Source of the DNA: Bacteroidia bacterium
GTDB lineage: Bacteria > Bacteroidota > Bacteroidia > NS11-12g > UBA9320
Direction: 5' to 3'
Assembly (NCBI GenBank): GCA_020849295.1
Contig: JADLGN010000005.1
Coordinates: 186,001-250,000, forward strand
Length of the DNA stretch: 64,000 nt
In this document: one piece after another, positions 5,236-14,940 of the stretch
Layout: every line of letters begins with the position of its first letter
Numbering within the stretch: position 1 is the first letter of the stretch
The notes under the pieces: model-generated
Databases searched by the model: none
What the model was told of the DNA's origin: nothing
Seen by the model: only the letters and a program-made list of their open reading frames with translations
Position numbers and translations under genes: made by a program

Positions 5236-5904
5236 TTAAATATGATTTTCTATGGTTTGTTCTGTTGAATTATTTTCAATACTATTTTCTTCTATAGTGT
5301 CTTTTTTTTCGTGTTCAAAAAACTTCTTTTGAAAAATAATAATTGCAATAACTCCTGCGCTAATACTTGCATCTGAAATATTAAATACAGGGCGAAAAAA
5401 TGTGAAACTTTCGCCAGCCCAAAAAGGAAACCACGAAGGATAGTGTGTTTCAATTATCGGAAAATAAAACATATCAACTACCCTGCCGAGAAAGTATTTT
5501 CCCTTTTCATCATAGGTAACTATATCACTATACCAAACCCCATAAAACAGACTATCTATAATATTTCCGATTGCACCTGCAAGAATAAGAGAAATGCAAA
5601 TAATCAAACCTATATGGGCATTTTTGAAAATTTGCTTTATAAGATACCAAATTATCCCCGCTACTGCAAGCAACCTAAAACCAGTAAGAATAAATTTGCC
5701 AGATTTACCACCTATTTCTAAGCCAAAAGCCATTCCATTGTTTTCGGTAAAATGAAGGAAAAACCAATTTCCAATCATTCTTTTGGTTTGTCCTAAATAC
5801 ATGTTGTGTAATACCCAATTTTTTAGATATTGGTCAACAAACAACACAGTTGCCAAAACAAAAATTGAAATCAGCCAGTATTTGGTTGTTTTTGAAAATT
5901 TCAA
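5236..5904 (-). CDS. lspA: Lipoprotein signal peptidase (signal peptidase II)
   Basis: Inner-membrane aspartyl protease that cleaves prolipoprotein signal peptides ahead of the lipidated Cys. At 222 aa it is longer than the roughly 165-aa E. coli form, as is usual for Bacteroidota because of an insertion between the catalytic helices (about 130-170). Four hydrophobic segments are visible. The catalytic aspartates lie in GAIGNIIDS and FNISDASIS, and FTENNGMAFG is the conserved early loop. The tail is charged and probably cytoplasmic. It is the last gene of an ileS-dksA-lspA operon, 4 bases after the preceding stop. The window encodes several lipoproteins that would be its substrates. Confidence 0.95.
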   Translation of the reverse strand: MKFSKTTKYWLISIFVLATVLFVDQYLKNWVLHNMYLGQTKRMIGNWFFLHFTENNGMAFGLEIGGKSGKFILTGFRLLAVAGIIWYLIKQIFKNAHIGLIICISLILAGAIGNIIDSLFYGVWYSDIVTYDEKGKYFLGRVVDMFYFPIIETHYPSWFPFWAGESFTFFRPVFNISDASISAGVIAIIIFQKKFFEHEKKDTIEENSIENNSTEQTIENHI

Positions 5905-5908
5905 GCTA

Positions 5909-6289
5909 TTATTTGTACTGTTTTAATTTGGCTTCCATGCTCTGCGTGGTATGCGGCACAGCCATAAGTCTTTCTTTGGGTATCAATTTTCCGGTAACTT
6001 TACAAATACCATAAGTTTTGTTTTCTATTCTTAGCAAAGCATGTTCGAGATTGTCAATAAACTTTTTTTGTCTTGATGCAAGTTGCGAAATATTTTCTTT
6101 GAGCAATGTAGAATTACCATCTTCCATTGTCTTGTAAACACTTCCTGTATCGTCAGTACCATTTGAGTTATTTCCTGATTCTATCAAATCTTTTAACTCA
6201 GATTTTGCTGATTCAAGTTTTTTTAAAATCACTTCTTTAAAATCCTGAAGTTCTTCATCTGTATAATAAGTTTTTTCTTTTTGTTCCAT
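5909..6289 (-). CDS. DksA/TraR-family protein without a zinc-finger cysteine set
   Basis: A 126-aa protein with an N-terminal coiled coil (about 10-95) and a C-terminal zinc-finger-like region, in the family of RNA-polymerase secondary-channel factors. The C-terminal stretch YGICKVTGKLIPKERL keeps the family shape but has only one Cys where DksA has four, so zinc binding is unlikely. I recall this degenerate form as common in Bacteroidota, so it is probably functional. It sits between ileS and lspA with 4-base gaps on both sides and is almost certainly co-transcribed. By family it may tune transcription with ppGpp or otherwise; this is inference. Confidence 0.85.
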   Translation of the reverse strand: MEQKEKTYYTDEELQDFKEVILKKLESAKSELKDLIESGNNSNGTDDTGSVYKTMEDGNSTLLKENISQLASRQKKFIDNLEHALLRIENKTYGICKVTGKLIPKERLMAVPHTTQSMEAKLKQYK

Positions 6290-6293
6290 TTTT

Positions 6294-9200
6294 TTATACC
6301 TTATTAATTGATAATTGTATTTCTATTCCGTTTATTTCTATTGTTTCTCCAACTACTGAAATGTGGGAATCTATTTTATTGGCCAAAATTTCGGTGCAAA
6401 TATATGTTTTGTATTTAGAAATGGCACTATCAATGTCATTTTGTTGATTAATAGTTACAATTATTCTGTCGTCAACTTTAAATCCTTTGTCTTTTCTAAG
6501 ATTTTGAATTTTATTTACAATTTCTCTGGCTAAGCCTTCTAAGTACAATTCTGTACTGATTTTTAAATCTAAAGCTACTGTTAGGCTTCCATTTACAGCT
6601 ACTTGCCATCCTTCAATATCTTTTGTAATAATTTCAATATCTTCTAATAGCAATTCAAAATTATTATCGCCAAGTTCAAGTTTGATTTTTCCTTCTTGTT
6701 CAAGATTTTTAATTTGTTTTTCGGTAAAATTCGATATCAAATTTCCTAAATCTTTCATTTTGGCACCCGCTTTTGGTCCAAGTTTTTTGAAATCAGGTTT
6801 TGCAGTTTTAATAATTATAGAACTTTCGCCATCATATAGAAATTTTATTTCTCTTACATTCACTTCACTCAATATTAATTCTTTAACATTATTTATTCTT
6901 TCTTCAAAATTTTTATTAAGTACAGGAATTAAAATTGTTTGCAAAGGTTGTCTTACTTTAATTTTCTCTTTTTTGCGAATTGCAAGTATCATACTGCAAA
7001 TTTCCTGAGCAAGGTTCATACTTTCGATAAGATTACTGTCTATTAATGAATTGTCAGCTATTGGAAAGTTGCATAAATGAACTGAATTTATTTTATTATT
7101 TTTTTCTGAGCTGTGATTTAAGTTTTTGTACAACCAGTCTGCAAAAAACGGTGCAATAGGACTCATCAACACACTTACGGTTTCAAGGCATTTATAAAGA
7201 GTTTCGAAAGCAGATTTTTTGTCATCACCTGCTTCACTTTTCCAGAAACGCCTTCTTGACAACCTCACAAACCAATTGCTAAGATTGTCGTTTACAAAAT
7301 CCTGAATTGCTCTTGTTGCAAGATGTGGTTCATAATTATCAAAATAGTTTTTTGTTTCAGAAATAAGCTTATTGAGTTCTGCAATTATCCATTTGTCAAG
7401 TTCAGATAAATTTTTATAAGAAACCAAATCATTTTGGTTAAAAACAAACTTGTCAAGATTGGCATATAGTGAAAAAAACGAGTAGGTATTGTACAATGTT
7501 CCAAAAAACTTGCGTTGAGTTTCGGCAAGTCCTTCAATGTCAAACTTCAGGTTTTCCCAAGGTGCTGCATTTCCTATCAAATACCAACGTGTAGCATCAG
7601 CTCCGTATTTTTCTATTGTTATAAATGGATCAACGGTGTTGCCAAGCCTTTTACTCATTTTATTACCGTTTTTGTCTAATACAAGTCCATTTGCTACAAC
7701 ATTTTTGAATGCAACCGAATCAAAAAGCATAACAGCAATAGCATGAAGCGTAAAAAACCATCCACGTGTTTGGTCAACGCCTTCTGCAATAAAATCAGCC
7801 GGAAAAACCCCTTTTACATTAAGTTCATTATTTTTCTTGTTTAAAATATTTACTAAACCCCATTGAGCATAAGGCATAGCACCACTGTCAAACCAAACAT
7901 CAATCAAATCAGTTTCGCGTTTCATTGCTTTTCCTGATTTTGAAACAAGTATTATATTGTCAACGTAAGGGCGATGAAGGTCAATGCCATGTCCGCTTTC
8001 GAGAATATTTGCATCAATAAACCCAGCGTCAATTGATTTTTGAACTTCATTTTTCAACTCTTCAATAGAGCCAATACAAATTTCTTCTTTGCCATCTTCT
8101 GTTCGCCAAATTGGCAATGGAGTACCCCAATATCTACTACGGCTGAGGTTCCAGTCAACAAGGTTTTCGAGCCAGTTGCCAAAACGCCCCTCGCCTGTAT
8201 GTTCGGGTTTCCAATTTATAGTTTTATTCAGATTTATTAAATTTTCTTTTATTGCAGTAGTCTTTATAAACCAACTTTCTAAAGGATAATAAAGCACCGG
8301 TTTATCAGTACGCCAGCAGTGAGGGTAGCTGTGTTCGTATTTTTCAACTTTAAAAGCCTTATTTTCCTCTTTAAGTTTTATGGCAAGTTCTACATCAACA
8401 GATTTTTCGGGTGGGTTTGTATAATATTCGTTTTTAACAAATTTACCTGCAAATTCACCCATTATATTTATAAATTTTCCTTGCAAATCAACAAGAGGAA
8501 CAAGTTTGTCTTCGTCATTTTTTACAAGCATAGCTGGTACATTTGCTTTTTTGGCTACACGGGCATCATCAGCCCCAAAAGTGGGTGCAATATGTACAAT
8601 ACCTGTACCTTCTGCTGTACTTACAAAATCTCCTTCTATTACTTGAAAAGCATTTTCGCGATTTTCAAATGGCGTGGCAAATGGTAATAGTTGCTCATAT
8701 TTTATTCCTTTAAGGTCTTTACCTTTTATTTCACTTAATATTAAAAAGGGAATTTTTTTATCTCCGGCATTATAATCTTCAATTTTAAGCGATGAATCTT
8801 CTTCTTTAAAAAATTTAGAAAGTAACTCTTTTGCAAGTACTACATTTATGGGTTTAAATGTGTATTGATTAAAGGTTTTTACAACAACGTAATTTATTGA
8901 CTTGCCAACTGCAAGGGCTGTGTTTGAGGGCAAAGTCCACGGTGTGGTAGTCCATGCCAAAAAGAAAACTTCGCCATCAATATTTGAAAGAATTGATGCG
9001 GAATTCTTTATTACTTTAAACTGAGCAACGAGTGTAGTATCTTTTACATTTCTGTATGTACCTGGCTGATTGAGTTCATGGCTGCTAAGCCCTGTACCGG
9101 CTGCAGGAGAGTAAGGTTGTATTGTATATCCTTTATATAAATAGCCTTTATTGTAAATTTCTTTTAGTAAAAACCAAACAGTTTCGATATAGCTGTTTTC

Positions 9201-9789: not shown

Positions 9790-10219
9790 TTACTCAAGCA
9801 TCAATTTATAATTTATTGTTTGATTGTTTTTAGGATTTATAATTCTTAAAAAATATATTCCTCTTGAGCATTGAGAAGTATTAATATCTATACTTTGAGT
9901 TGTAATAAATGATGATATTTGTTTTCCATACATGTCATTTAAATAAATTATAAGTTCATCATTATTACTTTGAGGTATATCTACAAAAAACCTATCATTT
10001 ACAGGATTAGGATAAATAGTAATTTTATTTAACAAATTAAAGTTTATATTATCAGTTTTGAGGTGTATTATATTTTCAAATGTATCAGTTCCGCACAGAT
10101 TCGTTACAAAAAGTATTGCTATTTATAATTATGAAATTGCTTAATTCCGAAACCTGTCCGTTTAGCAAAAAATTATTATTATCAAATTTCAACTCAGGGA
10201 TTAATTTCTGTAAATTCAT
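9790..10219 (-). pseudogene. Decayed T9SS-sorted secreted protein remnant (frameshifted)
   Basis: The 3' part encodes a clear T9SS type A sorting domain (ITIYPNPVNDRFF, MYGKQISSF, SRGIYFLRI), preceded in the same frame by LFVTNLCGTDTFEN, which looks like the end of a PKD-like module. That frame is stopped at about 10117. A different frame, from ATG 10219, carries NLQKLIPELKFDNNNFLLNG and reads into the same region, ending in a stop just past it. The two frames meet at the CTTTTTG run near 10103-10110, suggesting a frameshift in an already truncated gene. No signal peptide remains. Only a TTG is available as start for the intact 81-aa end, so I call it a remnant. Confidence 0.55.
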
Positions 10220-11055: not shown

Positions 11056-11961
11056 TTATCGAATAATAAGTTTTTCTTTTTTAAGTAGAGAACCATACGA
11101 ATCTTGAATTTCAATAATATATATACCTGATTCAATATTTTTTAGAGATATATTATTTTCAGTATTTGTAAAATTTTCATTAATAATAATTTTACCATTT
11201 ATATCAAATATTTTAACAATATGTCTAAAATTTAAATTTTTAATGGGCACTTGGAATGTAATTTTTAGTTCATCAGAATTTTTATTTAATGGATTTGGGT
11301 AAATTTTTATTTTTATTTCATCTGATGAAAAAAATTCTTTATCTTCTTCAATTCCTAAATTTCTTTTGAATAAAGAATTTAAATCACTTTCTAACTCACT
11401 TATTGAAAGGTTTACTGAATACCCTCCATTTTCATTTTGATTATTTATAAACAGAGTATCATTTGTATAAACTAATGGAAACACCTTTATTTCTAATCTA
11501 TTATTAATGTTGTCAAAATAAAATTTGTAAGCCCACCCGTTTGTATTCCATGTTACCGGAATTTGAAAATAATGGGCAATAACAGAAATATTGGTATCTA
11601 ATTTTGAATATGCTCGAAACCGACCAGTAACTAATTCATCACATGCTACAAATAGATTACTATTTTCATACAAGCAATTTGCTTCTTTTGCTAAATCAAT
11701 TCTATTTTGATTTGCAAATCCTTCAAGTTGATATGATGTACAAGTCACTTGATGATTATTACCATTTGCATCCTTACACCAGTACTGATTCAAACAAGGG
11801 TTTGTAGTTTGTTCTGAAATCCAAGATGTACCACCTCCACACGCAGTTGGTAATGTTAATTTAGCGAAATAAGTAATTTTTGGTCTTGAATAAGTAATAC
11901 TTGTAATAAATAATGCTAATATAAAAAATAGTGATTTTAAAATTTGAATAGTTTTTTTCAT
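11056..11961 (-). CDS. Secreted protein with C-terminal T9SS sorting domain
   Basis: A 301-aa protein with signal peptide (MKKTIQILKSLFFILALF, cut near TYS) and a T9SS type A domain at about 215-301 (KIKIYPNPLN, VKIFDINGKII, IESGIYIIEI), so it should cross the outer membrane by the type IX system. The middle (30-205) is unrecognised. It has an early Cys-rich stretch (ACGGGTSWISEQTTNPC, YWCKDANGN, VTC) suggesting disulfides. The first 13 coding bases and about 315 bases upstream are nearly identical to the start region of the 143-aa secreted gene at 13587-14018, so the two share a duplicated leader. Confidence 0.8.
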   Translation of the reverse strand: MKKTIQILKSLFFILALFITSITYSRPKITYFAKLTLPTACGGGTSWISEQTTNPCLNQYWCKDANGNNHQVTCTSYQLEGFANQNRIDLAKEANCLYENSNLFVACDELVTGRFRAYSKLDTNISVIAHYFQIPVTWNTNGWAYKFYFDNINNRLEIKVFPLVYTNDTLFINNQNENGGYSVNLSISELESDLNSLFKRNLGIEEDKEFFSSDEIKIKIYPNPLNKNSDELKITFQVPIKNLNFRHIVKIFDINGKIIINENFTNTENNISLKNIESGIYIIEIQDSYGSLLKKEKLIIR

Positions 11962-12276
11962 TGTATATAATTTTTTTTTAAAAAAGTTTATGCCTACTAA
12001 ACTGGGGTATCGGCACTCCCATAAGTTAGTTTAATGTTCATAACAGCAAAGTTATTTTTTTTCATGTAATTTTTAATTGTGATTGGTTCTTTAATTTGTA
12101 CCTCCTTTCTTTTATTTAATTTGTTAATTTTATAATTATCACTGCATATATATATATATACCTTACAAACCAAATATTTTTACAAAATATTTTATAAAAC
12201 ATTGAAAAACAATACCAATAATTTTTCTTGCCTTTTTAGGAGTAGATTATAAAGGGTAAATTATCTGTTGGTTGGT
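11948..12276 (-). repeat. 330-bp duplicated leader, copy 1
   Basis: This 329-base block runs from codon 5 of the 301-aa secreted gene through its whole upstream region and is about 98% identical to 14005-14335. Differences I see are a TA-run length change (15 against 17 bases), two changes near 12051-12060, and single changes near 12119 and 12230. On the minus strand it holds a purine-rich AAAGGAGGT, a 22-codon frame (12065-11997) and an imperfect hairpin (CTAA..CT..GGG with CCC..AG..TTAG). It fills most of the 375-base gap between genes. The function is unknown; a promoter plus 5' leader is the simplest reading. Confidence 0.85.
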
Positions 12277-12336
12277 GGTTAGTTGTTTAGACTCGAGTAA
12301 AACTTGAAGTAAAGTAAGTAAAAACTAATTTCATAT

Positions 12337-13569
12337 TTATAAATTTGATTTTAAAATATAGTATTTAAGTTTATAAGTTTCCCAGTTATTTACATCAGGC
12401 ATTATAAATTCACTTAATGTTTTACCTATTAAACTATCATACATATCATAGCCATATACAAAAAAATAAGGTAATGAAATATTAAAATTCATATGATATA
12501 ATTCAACAGGGAAATCTTCATTCTTAACAATTTTATTATTAAATTTATTGAAGATTTTTAAATTTGAATCAATGTTTGAAAAGAGATTGTTTGTAAAATC
12601 GAAATATGAAAATACATATTCAAAGTTTTTTTCATTTGTTTTTTTTGTAATTATAAATCCAATTCTTGAATTATTAATAAAAAAACATTTTTTAATAAAA
12701 TTAATTGTATCAAGTTTAAAATAGGTACTTAATCTGTCGCCTGTAAAATTTCCAGGATAGAGATTCTTTATAGATATTTCAGTTTTTGAATCTATAATTT
12801 TGAAATTAAAATTAATATTTGTTTTTAAATCAAATCTAACTGTATCTAGTGACTCGATATCAAAAATAGTAATTATAAATTTTGTTGGAGAGGTGATTAA
12901 TATTTTTTTATCATAATAATCAATATATTTAGTACTTCCGTAATTAATGAAACATTGTTCGAAATCAGGCAATAAAAAATATTTTTTTAATTTTAATTTA
13001 TTATTATATATATATAAACCTATTGTATCTATTTTTTTGCTAATTACACATTGTTTACTAATATTAATTTTTCCAAATCCTGCATAATATTTTCCAATAT
13101 GATAAAAATATTTAAAAGATTCATCAAATTTTTTATAAATATCAATTATGCTCTTAATATAAATTTTAGAATTTCTTATTTTAAAAGAAATTAATACTTT
13201 ATTTTCAACAAATACATCAAATTCATCTTTATTTATTTCGTATGAATTATTAATTTTTAATGCACCATTTTTAATGTATTGTTTTAAAATATCTGGATAT
13301 TCAATTTCAAATGTTGATTCTACTACGTTTTTTTCATCAAACTCAATTTTATGTATTTTAAAATGAGTTTTTTTTTGGTTACTTCCAATTATTATTTGTC
13401 CTTGAAAAAAAGTGCTCTTAAAACTTGTTATATAATTTTCATATACAAATGGTGAATTTGTATTGAAATTGTTTAAAAGGTTTGTGTGTAATAAATTAAA
13501 CGAAAGTTGACCTTTAGCCTGGCTAAAAAAAAATATAATAATTCCGATCAAAAGTGTCAACTTTCGCAT
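12337..13569 (-). CDS. Hypothetical secreted protein, very Asn/Lys/Ile/Phe-rich
   Basis: A 410-aa protein with a signal peptide (MRKLTLLIGIIIFFFSQAKGQ). I do not recognise a domain. The mature part looks like repeated short beta strands, possibly a beta-propeller, but no clear repeat can be pinned down by eye. Its coding sequence is even more AT-rich than the core genes around it, fitting an accessory gene. It starts 17 bases after the stop of the 143-aa secreted gene on the same strand, so the two are probably co-transcribed from the copy-2 leader. No T9SS domain and no lipobox are seen. Confidence 0.65.
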   Translation of the reverse strand: MRKLTLLIGIIIFFFSQAKGQLSFNLLHTNLLNNFNTNSPFVYENYITSFKSTFFQGQIIIGSNQKKTHFKIHKIEFDEKNVVESTFEIEYPDILKQYIKNGALKINNSYEINKDEFDVFVENKVLISFKIRNSKIYIKSIIDIYKKFDESFKYFYHIGKYYAGFGKINISKQCVISKKIDTIGLYIYNNKLKLKKYFLLPDFEQCFINYGSTKYIDYYDKKILITSPTKFIITIFDIESLDTVRFDLKTNINFNFKIIDSKTEISIKNLYPGNFTGDRLSTYFKLDTINFIKKCFFINNSRIGFIITKKTNEKNFEYVFSYFDFTNNLFSNIDSNLKIFNKFNNKIVKNEDFPVELYHMNFNISLPYFFVYGYDMYDSLIGKTLSEFIMPDVNNWETYKLKYYILKSNL

Positions 13570-13586
13570 TTGAATTTAAAAATAAT

Positions 13587-14018
13587 TTAATAGTCGTTTC
13601 TGTCTAATGTCATTTCAACTTGGTTTGATGAATTGATAGACCATGTAGCAGTATAATGTCTAACAAAATTTTCACCACTAACTTGAACATTTAAAGTTAT
13701 TGAACCAGAATTTGTTCCTTGGTTAATTTCAACATCAGCTTGTGAAAATAATGAATTTGCAGCAAGTATGTCGTTCTCGTCTAAATTTCCAGGATCACCA
13801 CCAGGTGCAATACTTGAAGGACAAACCTCACATGTTGAAGAACATTCACAATTAATAACTCTTAAAATATCACCATTTGCAAGAGTGTAATCTGTAATTG
13901 TAGAAGAAAATCCTTCACAAGACTGATTAATAGGGTAATACCTAAAAATTATTGTTTTAGCATTTGATGTTAAAAATAAGAAGACTAAAAATAAAGATAG
14001 AATAATAGTTTTTTTCAT
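13587..14018 (-). CDS. Small Cys-rich secreted protein of unknown function
   Basis: A 143-aa protein with a signal peptide (MKKTIILSLFLVFLFLTSNA). The mature part has a Cys cluster (INCECSSTCEVCPSS) near residues 55-67 and a C-terminal half rich in alternating polar and hydrophobic residues ending LDRNDY, suggesting a small beta-sheet domain. No family recognised and no T9SS domain. It is first of a two-gene unit with the 410-aa protein and is preceded by copy 2 of the duplicated leader, which it shares with the 301-aa T9SS protein. Confidence 0.7.
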   Translation of the reverse strand: MKKTIILSLFLVFLFLTSNAKTIIFRYYPINQSCEGFSSTITDYTLANGDILRVINCECSSTCEVCPSSIAPGGDPGNLDENDILAANSLFSQADVEINQGTNSGSITLNVQVSGENFVRHYTATWSINSSNQVEMTLDRNDY

Positions 14019-14335
14019 TGTATATAATTTTTTTTTAAAAAAGTTTATGCCTACTAAACTGGGGTATCGGCACTCCCATAAGTTAGTTTAATGTTCATAA
14101 CAGCAAAGTCAATTTTTTTCATGTAATTTTTAATTGTGATTGGTTCTTTAATTTGTACCTCCTTTATTTTATTTAATTTGTTAATTTTATAATTATCACT
14201 GCATATATATATATATATACCTTACAAACCAAATATTTTTACAAAATATTTTATAAAACATTGAAAAACAATACCAATAATTTTTCTTACCTTTTTAGGA
14301 GTAGATTATAAAGGGTAAATTATCTGTTGGTTGGT
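14005..14335 (-). repeat. 330-bp duplicated leader, copy 2
   Basis: A 331-base near-identical partner of 11948-12276, placed the same way: it ends a few codons into the 143-aa gene (MKKTI shared) and extends upstream. The 22-codon frame is kept (14122-14054), with two codons different from copy 1 and no indel. The match stops sharply at GGTTGGT. The two copies are direct repeats about 2.06 kb apart and flank the 143-aa and 410-aa genes, so recombination between them could delete or amplify that pair. Confidence 0.85.
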
Positions 14336-14534
14336 AATATTTTTAAAAATATCTATCATACCCGCCACAGGTATCTGCCAAGAGCCACTTTGCAGTATAG
14401 CTGAGGCGAGACATTGGCTGGGAAGTTTATTTGTTTGTTTATTTTGGAGTGAGACTCGGGTTGGAAGAAAAGTAATTCTTTAACTTATAATCTAATCATA
14501 ATTGTAGAACAATGCTTTTCTTTTACCATTATTG
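14336..14534. other. Intergenic stretch with a GC-richer core
   Basis: No gene seen. Bases 14358-14430 are clearly richer in G+C than the surroundings (CCCGCCACAGGTATCTGCC, GCTGAGGCGAGACATTGGC) and could be a worn intergenic repeat element, but I find no second copy in the window. Confidence 0.3.
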
Positions 14535-14744
14535 CAAAAAAAGTAAAACCGAATGCAAGAAAAGTAAAATAGATTATAAAAAAAGTATAACCCAATGCAA
14601 AAAAAGTATAACCCAATGTAAAAAAAGTAAAATCGAATGCAAAAAAAGTATAACCCAATGTAAAAAAAGTAAAATCGAATGAAAGAAAAGTAAAATCAAT
14701 TATAAAAAAAGTAAAACCCAATGTAAGAAAAAGAAAAAATATTG
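14535..14744. repeat. Tandem array A, ten 21-bp units
   Basis: Ten consecutive 21-base units of the form (C/T)AAAAAAAGTAAAAYCSAATG cover 14535-14744. Units differ at a few positions, alternating between GTAAAA and GTATAA and between CCCAATG and TCGAATG. There are no unique spacers. As 21 is a multiple of three, the minus strand stays open across the array with a heptapeptide repeat (FTFFALGY-like), which explains the long but implausible ORF there. Confidence 0.9.
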
Positions 14745-14870
14745 ATGCTCGATGTAGCAAAATGAAGGCTCGATGTAGCCAAATGAATGCTCGATGCAGC
14801 CAAATGAAGGTTTGATGTAGCCAAATGAATGCTCGATGCAGCCAAATGAATGCTCGATGTAGTTAAATGA
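14745..14870. repeat. Tandem array B, six 21-bp units
   Basis: Six units of the form ATGCTCGATGYAGCCAAATGA cover 14745-14870. They begin exactly where array A ends and keep the same 21-base register, though the unit sequence is unrelated. Variation among units is low (ATG/AGG at the start, TGTAG/TGCAG inside, GTTAA in the last unit). The remaining bases to the next gene end at 14941 show nothing further. Confidence 0.9.
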
Positions 14871-14940
14871 AGCCAATCAAGGATTCAATCGGGTGTTCAA
14901 TACTTCCGGATGGTGATTTTATAAAGAAAGATTAAACAAA

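Follow-up and report, generated by a model that had tools for sequence, protein, structure and literature searches.

The DNA analysed here, hereafter the window, is a stretch of 64,000 nt from the genome of a Bacteroidia bacterium (G000; 2.68 Mb in 55 contigs), and it holds two nearly identical leader blocks, A and B, placed immediately upstream of genes for secreted proteins. Copy A precedes the gene of a 301-aa protein, and copy B precedes two genes whose products have 143 and 410 aa (Table 1). An initial annotation had described a duplicated block of ~330 bp and ~98% identity before two secreted-protein genes, and a repeat search made independently of it recovered the same block as two pairs of segments (11947-12160/14004-14217 and 12146-12276/14205-14335, each 99% identical). 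These pairs are split by a 2-bp TA indel, next to which the copies differ by four substitutions across ~330 aligned columns. As had been stated, the block covers the first codons and the region upstream, after which the coding regions diverge: the common part stops after ATGAAAAAAACTATT, i.e. codon 5 (MKKTI) of both genes, and past both edges the flanking sequences are unrelated. The orientation had to be corrected, as both copies and all their genes lie on the minus strand.

The initial annotation had also proposed a common regulatory input, and had held that a lack of further copies and of shared expression would point to a chance duplication. A third, diverged copy (80%) is present on contig C32 of the same genome (C32:1552-1766). 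Of the genes behind it, one encodes a secreted protein of 153 aa and the other a PKD/Por_Secre_tail protein of 1359 aa. In congeners, similarly built leaders stand before signal-peptide genes; both the third copy and these leaders support a common input. All three copies share an exact 37-mer, AAAGGAGGTACAAATTAAAGAACCAATCACAATTAAA, while the remaining third-copy sequence is ~80% identical. Because of this third copy and the congener leaders of the same build, the block appears to be more than a segmental duplication. The 98–99% identity of A and B and their sharp edges would fit a young segmental duplication or gene conversion without function, yet such an origin would hardly preserve the 37-mer core in an otherwise diverged copy, nor does it agree with the congener leaders or with a covarying pseudoknot type in unrelated genomes (see below); we therefore deem it improbable. 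Contig C32 itself is situated among repeated secreted-protein genes, since near-identical PKD/secretion-tail coding sequence is found at L031:1-784 and 5640-6437. Furthermore, imperfect 21-bp tandem repeat arrays, also seen as periods 42 and 63, sit directly upstream of copy B (window 14533-14872) and of the third copy (L031:1093-1395), with different unit sequences and equal period; no such array is found upstream of copy A.

Within the block, AGAAAGGAGGU, located ~140 nt upstream of the start codon, is complementary to the 3' tail of 16S rRNA and forms an extended Shine–Dalgarno (SD) sequence. Because antisense matches at 16S ends reveal the tail to be GGACCACCTCCTTTCT, the complementarity can be given as 9 nt in copy B and 11 nt in both copy A and the third copy, with a maximum of 12 nt among leaders. 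The computed duplexes with the 16S tail range from -13.4 to -20.9 kcal/mol across leaders, compared to -1.5 kcal/mol for the rpsU start region of this genome. Of the 31 AAAGGAGGT sites in the genome, 30 were inspected, and among these the three leader copies are the sole ones outside long frames. In seven genomes of the genus, AGAAAGGAGGT has 15 matches, nine of them in leaders of signal-peptide genes (signal peptides judged by eye), four antisense at 16S 3' ends and two in open reading frames (ORFs), versus two matches for the reversed control. The exact 23-mer of the SD core has no match in GTDB r220 contigs and IMG/VR, where the records of this genome are perhaps excluded, and the core thus appears lineage-specific; a BLAST search of the leader against 197 relatives gave, outside the own genome, mostly chance AT-rich matches.

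The anti-SD is normally hidden in Bacteroidia ribosomes; a strong SD is used by rpsU, the known exception. Since, in addition, the rpsU start region in this genus has no SD, one would not expect these leaders to carry an extended SD, and its presence in a lineage whose ribosomes should ignore SDs is the most surprising part of our results. In F. johnsoniae, a mutation of Tyr54 in bS21 raises translation of strong-SD reporters (PMC9976891); bS21 in this genus retains Tyr54. The extended SD of F. johnsoniae rpsU can be used by bS21-free ribosomes (PMC9976891), and one may ask whether the leader SD likewise starts a short leader frame, possibly by such ribosomes, that is coupled to the main gene. 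Two congener leaders do contain a start-like codon (TTG or GTG) 8-9 nt behind the SD. However, eight of the ten leaders lack any ATG, GTG or TTG 3-13 nt behind it, and the frames are not conserved between copies, which makes a translated leader frame unlikely.

A second element, of 30 nt, ends ~29 nt before the start codon in both A and B; elsewhere the motif ends mostly 15-25 nt ahead of it, with a mode of 21 nt. In the window copies, positions 1-16, 2-15 and 3-14 pair as stem 1 and positions 6-30, 7-29, 8-28 and 9-27 as stem 2, and because the 5' strand of stem 2 falls within the loop of stem 1, the predicted fold is an H-type pseudoknot. The imperfect hairpin that had been annotated near the gene start is better read as this pseudoknot. 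The element looks like an unrecognised variant of the DUF805b RNA (Rfam RF02914, clan CL00115), of which the Rfam model holds stem 1 only. Both share the same order of letters, GG...GCYGA...CC...AGTARGCA, the same stem 1 and the same site shortly before start codons, and homologous leaders of congeners match the model. Indeed, the leaders of the 143-aa gene homologue in two congeners (L096/L125 and L097/L124) carry GGGGAAGCTGAARACC-N-AGAGTARGCA, scoring 38.5 bits for L124 and 32.6 bits for L125 at a cut-off of 35.6. At the place and register of this DUF805b element the window copies have GGGAGTGCCGATACCC-N6-AGTAGGCA, with the conserved GA after stem 2 and the AGTARGCA 3' end in register, and a congener leader (L120, GGGATAGCCGATGCCC-N6-AGTAGGCA) bridges the two types. 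Unlike DUF805b, the window copies show GCCGAT...CCC and TTAGTAGGCA instead of GCYGAAAACC and AGAGTARGCA, and an inner G-C pair takes the place of the outer pairs. A hammerhead-like reading of CUGANGA was rejected because relatives do not conserve the G that follows N, and a simple terminator or hairpin was rejected on account of the plain leader fold (see below).

The pattern common to both types, GGGNNNGCYGANNNCC-N6-AGTARGCA, is found at two places in the window (none in 100 shuffles), at four in the genome, and 42 times in 395 Bacteroidia genomes with no match for the reversed control. When Y9 and R27 are left free, distinct sequences combine C-G 20 times, T-A 13 times, T-G twice and C-A four times (Fisher p = 3e-5), and omission of the own genus changes this little (p = 6e-5). 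With stem 2 free in viral contigs, pairs 7-29, 8-28 and 9-27 are formed in 97-98% of 90 listed sites, which include a few from an earlier narrower scan and are counted ignoring kinship, versus shuffle means of 78-92%; the pair types include GCC/GGC, GCU/AGC, GUC/GAC, GGC/GCC and CGG/CCG. With stem 1 free, pairs 1-16 and 2-15 are formed in 55 of the 55 new listed sites, as A-U, G-C or C-G. By these counts, both stems of the predicted pseudoknot covary among relatives.

Small translational riboswitches are compact pseudoknots near the start codon, and a compact covarying pseudoknot at this site, with conserved unpaired letters, could be a ligand-binding riboswitch for these genes. The genes behind the motif, however, are very diverse (phage genes and peptide precursors among them) and share no common pathway, and we regard this alternative with much doubt. 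Among the matches listed, the pseudoknot is common in IMG/VR viral contigs (L217-L235, L321-L465), often before ~250-aa ParB-like genes. DUF805b-type elements also precede small proteins with two similar halves (L126, L133, L149, L153, L176, L181, L185, L190, L194, L197, L247, L252), in surroundings that look, by eye, like integron gene cassettes, some of them with attC-like AACGTTAG letters, and short peptides with a GG-type motif (L128, L141, L142, L156, L177, L182, L188, L189, L212, L214), which look like secreted or modified peptide precursors. Three SD leaders of congener G001 (L107, L119, L121) have, instead of the DUF805b element, AAGCTGACTTGGAGGCTAAATAAGTC, which could form another H-type pseudoknot (AGCU/GGCU, GACUU/AAGUC). 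A fourth copy of the pseudoknot (L275:134-163, contig C12 of this genome) stands before a small frame that stops early (MKIKSII-stop) and may be what is left of a gene of this kind in decay.

The pseudoknot also bears on a 22-codon frame that had been noted in each copy. The frame is open in both, as a functional leader peptide would demand, but both A/B differences inside it alter amino acids, it does not recur in the third copy, and in L120 a different frame runs through the element. Its end (GGG AGT GCC GAT ACC CCA GTT TAG, i.e. GSADTPV) consists of pseudoknot letters, and the conserved letters are accounted for by the pseudoknot. Judged from the sequence, the frame is incidental, and a functional leader peptide is highly improbable.

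The promoter-like block lies upstream of the SD. The leaders of this genome and four of the five of congener G001 align as one family, with the fifth being looser, in the order AAATATTTT-nn-AAAAATATTTG palindrome with TTTG, TA tract, AATTATAAAAT and then the SD; the block of AT palindrome, TTTG and TA tract is thereby common to leaders of two species, this genome and one congener. In the window the palindrome is found in A and B only (none in shuffles), and the third copy as well as leaders of congeners contain a similar palindrome block. The other leaders have TA tracts of 5, 5, 13, 8 and 10 units, one leader being without any run of at least four units, which suggests a promoter with variable length. 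This is reminiscent of phase-variable promoters with TA repeats, such as the fimbrial hif promoters of Haemophilus, in that the tract differs by one unit between A and B and ranges from 5 to 13 units among paralogous leaders.

As direct repeats of ~330 bp, the two copies flank the 143-aa and 410-aa genes, so that gene swapping via the repeats is possible. The pair is found at unrelated loci in congeners, adjoining a feoB-like gene in G006 and a groEL-like gene in G003 (names read from translations), and at both loci it carries leaders with SD and DUF805b element. A related pair of 137 and 410 aa is encoded at C5:117-1768 of this genome, with neither SD nor pseudoknot in the 116 nt upstream. 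The 301-aa orthologue has a congener-type SD leader in G001 (L121) and no SD leader in G003. Because the 143-aa-gene leaders of two congeners already have SD and DUF805b pseudoknot, copy A probably arose recently from B, by duplication or gene conversion, with B being the older association. That the repeat as such serves recombination, by which the pair would be swapped, lost or amplified, agrees with the flanking repeats and with the unrelated loci, yet no deletion or amplification is seen in the one assembled state, and the content of SD and pseudoknot is better explained by expression. We consider such a role very unlikely as the explanation of the block, while it would be compatible with, and not exclusive of, a function in expression.

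The leader SDs share with the extended SD of Bacteroidota rpsU a stretch of 9-12 nt complementary to the 16S tail, a duplex below -13 kcal/mol (-13.4 for B, -17.7 for A, in an energy model perhaps unlike that of the paper) and a lineage with bS21 retaining Tyr54 (PMC9976891). They differ in their place, which is at least ~140 nt ahead of the start codon of secreted-protein genes rather than at rpsU, and in that most have no start codon close by. In this respect they resemble the stabilising SD (STAB-SD), which protects mRNA in cry3A-type 5' untranslated regions (UTRs) of Bacillus (PMC4113751): by analogy, an SD-like 5' UTR site remote from the start codon could pair with the 16S tail and yet not initiate translation. 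Unlike STAB-SD, however, the leaders belong to another phylum, in which the anti-SD is normally sequestered.

Altogether, we hold it moderately likely that the block acts as a compound leader for expression of a small regulon of secreted proteins, made up of a promoter, a site for 30S capture or stabilisation and a pseudoknot for translation control. The AT palindrome would provide common transcriptional control, and changes in TA tract length would change promoter strength. The extended SD may capture 30S subunits with a free anti-SD and in this way shield the mRNA, in the manner of STAB-SD in Bacillus; alternatively, the captured 30S may load ribosomes that move on to the start codon. Initiation would be controlled by the pseudoknot, which would lie just beyond the 30S footprint. 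In comparative terms, the leader is a new combination of known kinds of element, including a diverged variant, and more than a chance duplication. A bolder version, in which the surface-protein regulon is set by ribosome composition, the SD recruiting bS21-less 30S and the pseudoknot handing it to the start, has in our estimation a small though appreciable chance of being correct.

Several observations weigh against a compound expression leader. Class-wide, in 395 genomes, the extended SD is not enriched (~120 matches versus ~108 for the reversed control, approximate totals of our own count, with the inspected sites mostly in ORFs), from which it follows that the extended SD would be a property of this genus. 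The window copies have no Rfam match at the gathering threshold nor at E <= 10. In a plain minimum free energy fold, which is blind to a pseudoknot, the leader does not surpass shuffled sequences. Finally, the third copy lacks the portion of A and B behind the 37-mer and hence the pseudoknot. The parts of the leader are thus separable, the third copy consisting of promoter block and SD without pseudoknot, and two other loci of the genome having the pseudoknot without SD.

As for the proteins encoded behind the leaders, the 143-aa protein belongs to no Pfam family, and its predicted structure (predicted local distance difference test score, pLDDT, 77) has no confident PDB match (best E 0.005, template modelling score TM <=0.39); the prediction for the 410-aa protein reaches a pLDDT of 64. 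An 81-aa ORF at window positions 9790-10035 consists nearly entirely of a type IX secretion tail (Por_Secre_tail, 50 bits) and is probably the remnant of a larger gene.

Table 1. Positions in the window of the leader copies, their elements and the genes behind them.
Feature	Position	Strand	Basis or remark
Leader copy A, before 301-aa gene	11947..12276	-	repeat search and alignment
Leader copy B, before 143-aa and 410-aa genes	14004..14335	-	repeat search and alignment
AT palindrome AAATATTTTGTAAAAATATTTG with TTTG, copy A; candidate operator / -33 region	12171..12192	-	
AT palindrome, copy B	14230..14251	-	
TA tract, 7 units, presumed promoter spacer, copy A	12147..12160	-	
TA tract, 8 units, copy B	14204..14219	-	
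37-mer identical in three leader copies, copy A	12072..12108	-	
37-mer identical in three leader copies, copy B	14129..14165	-	
Extended SD AGAAAGGAGGT, copy A	12100..12110	-	duplex with 16S tail -17.7 kcal/mol
Extended SD AAAGGAGGT, copy B	14157..14165	-	duplex with 16S tail -13.4 kcal/mol
DUF805b-like H-type pseudoknot, 30 nt, copy A	11991..12020	-	pattern and covariation
DUF805b-like H-type pseudoknot, 30 nt, copy B	14048..14077	-	pattern and covariation
22-codon frame of the initial annotation	copy B 14054..14122, copy A 11997-12065	-	judged incidental
301-aa secreted protein gene with Por_Secre_tail (type IX secretion tail)	11056..11961	-	
410-aa secreted protein gene, partner of 143-aa gene	12337..13569	-	
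143-aa secreted protein gene	13587..14018	-	homologues in G000 contig C5, G003, G006

In summary, this leader family offers a place to ask what exposed anti-SDs do beyond making bS21, and since its SDs lie away from start codons, a screen limited to start regions would overlook such leaders. The sequence definition of the DUF805b RNA is widened, with a pseudoknot backed by covariation in both stems, and the RNA emerges as a compact 5' UTR element common to Bacteroidota chromosomes and phage contigs. If expression of the regulon is indeed set by ribosome composition, specialised ribosomes would have in these leaders, next to rpsU, a second class of natural targets, and the DUF805b RNA would gain a first function.

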